This document shows, in pieces, positions 58,847 to 60,365 of a stretch of DNA of 64,000 bases. Made by a program: the position numbers and the translations under genes. Source of the stretch: Leptodontidium sp. MPI-SDFR-AT-0119 (lineage: Eukaryota > Ascomycota > Leotiomycetes > Helotiales > Leptodontidiaceae); NCBI GenBank assembly GCA_020726505.1, contig JAHLEZ010000007.1:1240001-1304000 (forward strand), in the 5' to 3' direction. The notes under the pieces are model-generated. The model was given only the letters and a program-made list of their open reading frames with translations. It searched no databases and had not been told where the DNA came from. Each line of letters opens with the position of its first letter. Positions within the stretch are counted from its first letter, which is position 1.

Positions 58847-60139
58847 GATTGACTAGAGATGTCTTTTGAAGTTAACAGGAGACAGGTGGGGAGACAGAAA
58901 CTTTCTCGTGAGTGATGGCTACTTATATATACGAATGTTTATCTTTCGAACCTTATCTAGGAGCCGATAAGATCAACATTTTGACAATCTCAGCCAGGTA
59001 CGTAATTGATAAGATGTGGATGCGAAAGGTACGAGTACCCAGGTGCGAGGTCTTGGGATTCTTGGCTTATCATCATGACGATTGGGAAACCGGCCGTGCC
59101 GAAATCATTGTGCACTTCGGCTCCTCCGCTTCAAAGTCAAATCGATGCAGGGTTGGAAGCCGAATAAGAGCCGGGCCGTGTAGATCAGCCTCATGGGTGG
59201 GATTCGGGCTTTGAAGGCATGATGAAGAACACAAACAGCTTTCTGTATAAATTCAGTGAGCGGTATTTGGGACTTTGATGCTTCTCATGATCTGAATTAT
59301 GTCCGACTTGTACACTGGTGACACTCGACTTGTTGATTTAATAGGGGGCTGGTGGAGAAGTAGGTTTGCTAAGCGAAGATCATCCGAAGTACAGGCGCCC
59401 CACGCGAACACATCTCATCTCCTTGCTCCATCCCCATGGATATGAAGGAGCATGTACGAGTAACATGGGTGAAGAGATCTCGGTTTACCAGTAAGACTAA
59501 TCATCAGCTCGAGTTCTATGGCAAAGTGCACTTTGGCTGCTGGGTCAACCATCTCCAAGGTCAACATCGCTTCGGGACAGACCATACCCCCCCCCCCCCC
59601 CTTTATTTGATCTTGCTGCCAGTCTCCATTTCATGGTGATTTACCTTCCGGCCACTCCTTCTTTGTAAACGTTCACTTGGTTTGTATTACCTTCTCAGCC
59701 TGGGCTTTTGGTTTCCTACGTCAAATACACACAGTGTTTTAGCTAGAAAAATCGTTGAATTGCAGTCGTCCCACATTTTCTGTCATACTTGGAGTACATT
59801 AGAGCTGCACAGCTAGCTCTATCTCAGCCCTAAACAATACTACATATTTTTACTTCTGCTGAAATACTTCTTTCCATCCCTGCTCGTCCCTTTCATTCGT
59901 GCTTAGCTGAGAAGCCCACTCATTGGCCAGTTTTAGCAGCAGCAGGTGAGCTTGAAAAAAAAGGCCACTGACATCGAAATGTAGTTGCAGCAAAAGGGCA
60001 ATACCTTGGTTTAAGTGAATTCTATGTGCAGAATGGAGGTCTTCGCTTCACTCCCGTGTGCGGTTGCTCCTTCCCTTCAAAATCGCTATCCCTCACATCT
60101 ACCAAAATAAGAGAATTCAATGCATCAAAAACGTGATGT
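58847..60139. other. Intergenic region upstream of the tRNA locus
   Basis: No ORF supported. Holds a 16-nt poly-C run at 59587-59602. The 60060-60139 part directly upstream of the tRNA contains no obvious Pol III element outside the gene. Confidence 0.4.
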
Positions 60140-60144
60140 GGCTC

Positions 60145-60196
60145 GTAAGTCTCCTCCAAGCACCGTTAAATCGTGACTTGTCTAACAAATTCACAG
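60145..60196 (+). other. Spliceosomal-type intron 1 in the tRNA (after nucleotide 5)
   Basis: 52 nt. Donor GTAAGT, branch point GTCTAACA about 12 nt before the end, acceptor TTCACAG. These are the canonical signals of fungal pre-mRNA introns. It interrupts the 5' strand of the acceptor stem between nucleotides 5 and 6. No tRNA-endonuclease bulge-helix-bulge is apparent. Confidence 0.8.
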
Positions 60197-60198
60197 TG

Positions 60199-60209
60199 TG
60201 GTCTAGTGG
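60199..60209 (+). promoter_or_regulatory. Pol III A box
   Basis: TGGTCTAGTGG matches the A-box consensus TRGCNNAGYNGG closely and doubles as the D-arm sequence. Confidence 0.75.
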
Positions 60210-60227
60210 TACGATTCTTGCTTCGGG

Positions 60228-60254
60228 GTTTCCCTGAGTTTGTATACTCAAACA
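60228..60254 (+). other. Canonical tRNA intron (37/38)
   Basis: 27 nt inserted one base after the anticodon, the site cut by tRNA-splicing endonuclease. Contains a small TGAGT/ACTCA hairpin. Confidence 0.75.
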
Positions 60255-60263
60255 TGTGAGAGG

Positions 60264-60314
60264 GTAAGTACATTCCTTGAAGAAAGTTCGAAATTGCAGT
60301 CTAACCAGTTACAG
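60264..60314 (+). other. Spliceosomal-type intron 2 in the tRNA (variable loop)
   Basis: 51 nt. Donor GTAAGT, branch point GTCTAACC 10 nt before the end, acceptor GTTACAG. It splits the variable loop AGG|TC between nucleotides 46 and 47. Its 3' end closely resembles that of intron 1. Confidence 0.8.
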
Positions 60315-60320
60315 TCCCGA

Positions 60321-60329
60321 GTTCGAACC
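60321..60329 (+). promoter_or_regulatory. Pol III B box
   Basis: GTTCGAACC fits the GWTCRANNC consensus within the T arm. It lies about 110 nt past the A box because the canonical intron and intron 2 separate them. Confidence 0.75.
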
Positions 60330-60358
60330 TCGGCAGAGCCCTACGCTTTGGGGAGTTA

Positions 60359-60365
60359 TTTTTTT
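60359..60365 (+). terminator. Pol III T-run terminator
   Basis: Seven consecutive T lie 17 nt after the tRNA 3' end, long enough to end Pol III transcription. Confidence 0.7.

Follow-up and report, generated by a model that had tools for sequence, protein, structure and literature searches.

The stretch considered here, hereafter the window, is 64,000 nucleotides (nt) from the fungus Leptodontidium sp. MPI-SDFR-AT-0119 (contig JAHLEZ010000007.1, positions 1240001-1304000, from a 77-Mb genome in 69 contigs). At positions 60140-60341 it carries what is, to judge from the sequence, very probably a working nuclear gene for the transfer RNA (tRNA) tRNA-Pro(CGG) that has two spliceosomal introns of U2 type in addition to a canonical tRNA intron. 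One protein of the genome, 93% identical to a protein of Cadophora sp. and 85% to one of Oculimacula yallundae, marks the organism as a Cadophora-like member of the Helotiales. Such spliceosomal-type introns, 28 altogether, occur in at least 22 of the genome's tRNA genes (21 identified by script, and one, L097, by hand), which serve Pro, Ile, Arg, Met, Ser, Thr, Ala, and Leu. A preliminary description of the window had proposed that the Pro(CGG) tRNA is made by a mixed pathway of spliceosome plus tRNA endonuclease. That proposal is supported as the best account of the sequence by the 22 genes and 28 introns, by comparison of paralogs, by decoy motifs, and by a promoter element whose place is set relative to exon 1.

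When 60145-60196, 60228-60254, and 60264-60314 are cut out (52, 27, and 51 nt, in that order), a 72-nt tRNA-Pro(CGG) is left, in which 7 of 7 pairs form in the acceptor stem, 3 of 4 in the D stem, and 5 of 5 in both the anticodon and T stems. All parts lie on the forward strand. Exon 1 (60140..60144) consists of acceptor-stem nt 1-5, which pair with the acceptor 3' strand in exon 4. Intron 1 (60145..60196), of spliceosomal type, falls between mature nt 5 and 6; it begins with GTAAGT and ends in CAG, with CTAAC 10 nt from its end. Exon 2 (60197..60227) supplies the remainder of the acceptor 5' strand, the D arm, and the anticodon CGG through nt 37, and it includes an A-box-like sequence, TGGTCTAGTGG (60199-60209). 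Position 37/38 is occupied by the 27-nt intron only (60228..60254), which ARAGORN calls as a canonical tRNA intron after removal of the other two. Exon 3 (60255..60263) extends from nt 38 into the variable loop, where the third intron (60264..60314), again of spliceosomal type, follows mature nt 45 (46/47 in standard numbering), with a GTAAGT donor, CTAAC 9 nt from the end, and a CAG acceptor; an intron occupies the corresponding position in L097, a Pro(AGG) paralog. Exon 4 (60315..60341) comprises the end of the variable loop, the T arm with a B-box-like sequence, AGTTCGAACCT (60320-60330), the acceptor 3' strand, and the discriminator C. A TATA-like element, CAAAATAAGAG (60103..60113), starts 37 nt 5' of exon 1, and a run of seven T's (60359..60365), a candidate terminator for RNA polymerase III (Pol III), lies 17 nt past the mature end. 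The preliminary description had the coordinates, the intron lengths, the product, and the perfect acceptor stem right to the base, as well as the donors, CTAAC motifs, and acceptors of the two longer introns.

Standard finders, as had been anticipated, miss the gene: no tRNA is found in the raw window by ARAGORN (introns off) or by Rfam at the gathering score, nor does ARAGORN with introns allowed find one in the unspliced gene with its flanks. Once both GT-AG introns are removed, ARAGORN names tRNA-Pro(CGG) and puts an intron of 27 nt in its anticodon loop. Removal of the last GT-AG intron alone yields no call; if only the first is taken out, the call places an intron of 67 nt in the anticodon region. 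With a covariance model built on 18 of the genome's tRNAs, the unspliced locus ranks highest in the window (20.5 bits), a score that is not independent evidence, because the spliced Pro(CGG) is itself among the 18. The gene also emerges from a splicing scan, which excises at most two GT/GC...CTNAY...AG introns (in its final form, of 40-90 nt) and requires a strict cloverleaf; the donor list and length limit were widened after a first run, once new genes had shown GTCAGT and GTTNGT donors. Applied to both strands of the window with 0-2 GT/GC-AG introns, the scan returns the Pro(CGG) gene alone, in two variants, one of which has a poorer start to the second intron. Among 813 dinucleotide-shuffled windows (104 Mb of strand), there were no calls with one or two introns and a single call without any. 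The shuffled windows and the decoy motifs described below rule out a chance origin of the split tRNA. The folding energy of the Pro(CGG) precursor gave a null result (z -0.09), and an exact search of viral and prokaryote contigs with part of exon 2 gave no matches.

The genome was searched for tRNAs (46 good and 11 weaker matches, with 63 of 2877 first-look candidates scored), and further loci were added by short-pattern searches (11 of the 26 places of one such search were read, and 12 of the 15 of another, the other 3 being of Gly type). The 91 loci so collected, some of which are chance pattern matches, include 72 that give a cloverleaf: 51 with no spliceosomal-type intron, 16 with one, and 5 with two. 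L097 fails the D-loop rule of the scan, and splicing out its two introns by hand produces a tRNA-Pro(AGG). The way in which the loci were found biases the sample, and the share of interrupted genes, 22 of 73, should therefore not be taken as a rate for the whole genome. After splicing, all 22 receive a tRNA call from ARAGORN (for L053, L126, and L137, the name is ambiguous or differs from the one assigned), and the acceptor stem is restored to 7 of 7 pairs in 20 of the 21 script-called genes. Before splicing, ARAGORN finds nothing in 16 of the 22 and makes a misnamed or mis-ended call in the other 6; tRNA counts of related genomes may therefore well be wrong.

The introns look like those of messenger RNA (mRNA) precursors. 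In the 26 found by script, the donor is GT in 25 and GC in one (GTAAGT in 13), the acceptor is CAG in 14, TAG in 8, and AAG in 4, and, as a branch-like motif, 17 introns have CTAAC, 6 have CTAAT, and 3 have another form of CTNAY (where an intron had several, CTAAC was preferred, else the last match). The two introns of L097 are likewise GT-AG. The branch-like motif lies 9-13 nt from the intron end in all 26, though 4-30 nt was allowed. Lengths run from 49 to 79 nt, and the median of 52.5 nt compares with 55 nt for eight predicted mRNA-type introns of the window (within a search range of 40-90 nt), which bears out a likeness already remarked upon in the first account of the Pro(CGG) gene. Forty of the 91 loci have no uninterrupted cloverleaf, and excision guided by the real motif rescues 21 of these, as against none for each of eight decoy sets, which likewise gave nothing with the 21 interrupted genes alone. 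If the removed segment is slid by up to 8 nt, the cloverleaf is kept at some offsets; the offset of 0 is best or tied in all 26 cases, and it is there that the ends are GT..AG (25 introns) or GC..AG (one). A second GT..AG offset exists in the two Ile genes only, with a lower score.

These figures bear on the possibility that the tRNA splicing endonuclease cuts the extra introns at non-canonical places, as in Cyanidioschyzon merolae, and that the GT-AG ends are incidental. The enzyme is to be expected in this fungus anyway, to deal with the introns at 37/38, and passages of PMC4090602 and PMC9602550 report introns in the D, anticodon, and T arms of nuclear tRNAs of C. merolae. Against this stand the failure of decoy ends where GT/GC...CTNAY...AG succeeds, the constant place of the branch-like motif, and the match in length to predicted mRNA-type introns, and we regard such cutting of the extra introns as highly improbable. 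An introner origin was also considered and rejected: no common near-identical family exists among the 26 introns, and long similarity is confined to the paralog pairs L049/L053 and L126/L127.

Paralogs provide controls of another kind. BLAST brings up four Ile(AAT) genes, two whole and two that match, at 100%, from nt 7 onward only. In the latter two, L048 and L050, the missing GATCGC precedes an insert of 55 or 62 nt that starts with GTAAGT and ends in CAG, and splicing gives a 74-nt product identical to that of the uninterrupted L013 and L014. An early intron is present in the Met gene L081 and absent from L100, and the two share one mature sequence. The two Ser(GCT) genes, L117 and L121, differ in where their introns lie and specify the same product of 81 nt, and thus each serves as the empty site of the other. 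The products of the Thr(TGT) genes L083 and L085 are identical, and the Ser(AGA) gene L082 is near but not identical to the uninterrupted L027 and L028. For L057, a Pro(AGG) gene with a broken acceptor stem, the sequence GGTCTTA was predicted to lie upstream before any search was made; what was found is GGTCTT/GTAAGC...CTAAC...TAG/A.

Could the interrupted copies nonetheless be unused pseudogenes, broken by insertions? L126 and L097 do look degraded, as detailed below. It would be hard to reconcile with such a fate, however, that the mature sequences of the Ile, Met, Thr(TGT), and Ser(GCT) genes are identical to those of paralogs, that acceptor stems are so regularly intact, and that no uninterrupted gene for Pro or Ala(AGC) turned up by the patterns and BLAST used. 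All four Pro genes found are interrupted, and so are all four complete Ala(AGC) genes found by an exact search with a D-arm pattern (a fifth copy is truncated). An intact second tRNA-Pro(CGG) gene, which the preliminary description had counted as a point towards a pseudogene, was found neither by 30-base and 19-base patterns nor by BLAST with the spliced tRNA nor by a TGG pattern, searches that are not exhaustive. The TGG pattern disclosed no Pro(TGG) gene either: one of its two matches is a known AGG gene, and the other, L141, was dismissed as a tRNA on inspection by eye. Among 4696 codons from five coding pieces of the window, there are 13 CCG, 131 CCT plus CCC, and 287 GCT plus GCC codons. 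As Pro and Ala codons are common in the genes of the window, some of the interrupted genes should work, unless intact copies escaped the searches. That the interrupted genes are dead seems extremely unlikely.

For seven isoacceptors, Pro-AGG, Pro-CGG, Ala-AGC, Thr-AGT, Thr-TGT, Ser-GCT, and Arg-CCG, the only complete genes found are interrupted. Because the census is incomplete, we can only infer a strict dependence on these genes. With that in mind, we lean towards a larger claim: that the seven are made solely by spliceosomal processing of Pol III transcripts, that translation of common codons is thereby obligately dependent on the spliceosome, and that the gain of the introns was recent enough for paralogs with identical products to differ in them.

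The signals for transcription keep their distance from exon 1. A promoter motif, (C/T)NAAATAAG, was learned from 44 tRNA genes without spliceosomal-type introns, in 33 of which the best match lies 28-53 nt upstream; at tRNA-Pro(CGG), the best match is CAAAATAAGAG (score 9.9). Among 12 genes whose first exon has 16 nt or fewer, 10 have their best match 32-43 nt upstream of that exon, and when the intron was admitted as a possible place for the promoter (in 11 of the 12, not L050), it was never chosen. A run of at least five T's (T5) occurs within 110 nt downstream of 17 of 21 interrupted genes and 48 of 51 others. Spliceosomal introns normally reside in transcripts of RNA polymerase II (Pol II), and so one might imagine the tRNA to lie within such a transcript, to be spliced as an mRNA would be, and then to be excised by RNase P and RNase Z. 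We consider this very unlikely, given a TATA-like element at a distance from exon 1 similar to that in uninterrupted tRNA genes, A- and B-box-like sequences, and the downstream T5 runs.

The order of events that best fits the mixed pathway may be put as follows. Pol III would start under the direction of the TATA-like element about 37 nt upstream and the internal A and B boxes, and it would stop at the run of seven T's. The two GT-AG introns would be removed by the spliceosome in the nucleus, presumably ahead of 5' and 3' trimming by RNase P and RNase Z, since the full acceptor stem cannot form with the first intron present. Finally, the 27-nt intron, by virtue of its canonical position at 37/38, would be removed by the Sen endonuclease and a Trl1-type ligase. 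With at least 22 tRNA genes carrying such introns, a good part of the fungus's supply of tRNA should then depend on the spliceosome.

Several observations weigh against this interpretation. The mere presence of GT/GC, CTNAY, and AG is not independent evidence, as these were search criteria. The census, with so few of its candidates scored, is biased by the route through which loci were discovered. Two of the 12 early-interrupted genes have their promoter match off the expected place (L117, at 62 nt, and L083, a weak match at 85 nt), and a T5 run is missing from the 110 nt downstream of 4 of 21 interrupted genes, compared with 3 of 51 others. None of the 21 interrupted genes has an internal T5 run, an absence without significance (the expected number lacking one is 18.9 of 21), and T-run depletion was accordingly set aside as proof of selection by Pol III. 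L126 appears degraded, with one acceptor mismatch and the anticodon CGG in a Leu body, and so does L097, whose D loop lacks one G. A strict test for a bulge-helix-bulge (a helix of 4 bp flanked by bulges of 3 nt, one at each cut site) was passed by 0 of the 26 introns but also by only 2 of 28 canonical introns; it does not discriminate, so it is only the motifs that oppose the action of the endonuclease on the extra introns.

The splicing of nuclear tRNA and that of pre-mRNA are taught as separate systems. Introns of nuclear tRNA genes have their canonical site at 37/38 and are handled by the Sen endonuclease and the Trl1 ligase. The Pro(CGG) gene has an intron of this kind, 27 nt long, and, unlike it, two more that lie elsewhere and bear spliceosomal signals. 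Parallels come from other structural RNAs, too. Spliceosomal introns of mRNA type are known in fungal U6 small nuclear RNA genes, also Pol III genes with a GT-AG intron, though a tRNA as host has its own needs for folding and end processing. This genome has two U6-like genes: L139 (G000:C13:138532-138689; 40.8 bits, below the Rfam cut-off of 44) has a 49-nt GTAAGT...CTAAC...CACAG insert after AGCATGGC, and L140 (70.9 bits) is uninterrupted there. The split copy reads CACTAAGG, and L140 reads CACAAGG. Rogers and coworkers are said to have described, in 1993, mRNA-type introns in nuclear 18S ribosomal RNA genes of ascomycetes. Those, too, interrupt a structural RNA of filamentous fungi, but they belong to a transcript of RNA polymerase I and not to a tRNA.

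Several introns in one nuclear-type tRNA gene, including in the D and T arms, are described for C. merolae and cryptophyte nucleomorphs in passages of PMC4090602. According to the same passages, bulge-helix-bulge motifs are thought to decide the ectopic introns of C. merolae, and the tRNA inserts of the Guillardia nucleomorph have 3-24 nt; the introns here, by contrast, are GT-AG introns of 49-79 nt with a branch-like motif. For eukaryotic tRNA genes, those passages term non-canonical introns rare, and they contain no word that starts with 'spliceosom'. The open-access passages at hand connect tRNA with group I and archaeal-type introns, not spliceosomal ones, and of the open-access literature matches listed none describes spliceosomal introns in nuclear tRNA genes. 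The available parts of PMC4424553 hold nothing against the proposed interpretation, nor do those of PMC12352066, in which a related genome was annotated with tRNAscan-SE. If the interpretation is true, then the two splicing systems are joined in one living fungus, the substrates of its spliceosome include Pol III transcripts with just 5-16 nt of tRNA in the first exon, and a defect in the spliceosome would strike translation directly. Moreover, tRNA paralogs whose products are identical, some with an intron and some without it, offer a clean natural record of intron gain.

Spliceosomal-type introns are found in the acceptor stem, the D arm, the anticodon stem, the variable loop, and the T arm. 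Expressed as the number of mature nt before the intron, the places are 5 and 45 in Pro(CGG); 6 in L057, 26 in L094, and (read by hand) the equivalents of 26 and 45 in L097, these three being Pro(AGG); 6 in both Ile genes; 7 in Met; 7 and 42 in L117 and 58 in L121, both Ser(GCT); 9 and 64 in each of the Leu-type L126 and L127; 10 in Ser(AGA); 10 and 52 in Thr(AGT); 16 in both Thr(TGT) genes; 47 in both Arg(TCG) genes; 52 in one Ala(AGC) gene and 57 in three; and 58 in Arg(CCG). In L084, L087, L089, L090, L091, L126, L127, and L137, the B box is broken by introns that lie at the T loop or within it. When the intron is at 53/54, its terminal AG adjoins TTCGA and resembles the GG of the B box; when it comes after TTCGA, the GT of the donor continues the B box. 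The two introns of L126, which has its anticodon CGG in a Leu-type body, are placed as in L127 (anticodon CAA), and L126 is either a decaying copy or a case of changed decoding.

Some loci were left uncounted: L086 (Gln CTG-like, with intron-like pieces between tRNA pieces and an unresolved 5' end), L051 (tRNA-like, with a 96-nt GTATGT...AG insert at or near the canonical place), and L136 (the truncated Ala copy). The remaining loci without a call are L040, L052, L056, L088, L095, L096, L098, L099, L102, L108, L110, L113, L123, L128, and L135. Chance pattern matches account for several of these, and two failed the scan for other reasons: L040 is an uninterrupted initiator-like tRNA, and L102 is cut at a contig end. 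The Arg(TCG) genes L049 and L053 lie in duplicated segments, with similarity through all 150 nt fetched on either side. The sequence TGGTTTAGTGGTTATTAG occurs eight times in the genome and is perhaps a repeat. Four tRNA-Lys(CTT) genes (L032, L033, L035, and L037) have in common a conserved 3' trailer, CAATTCCCGAGGTTCT, which could pair with CCTCGGG in the 3' part of the same tRNA.
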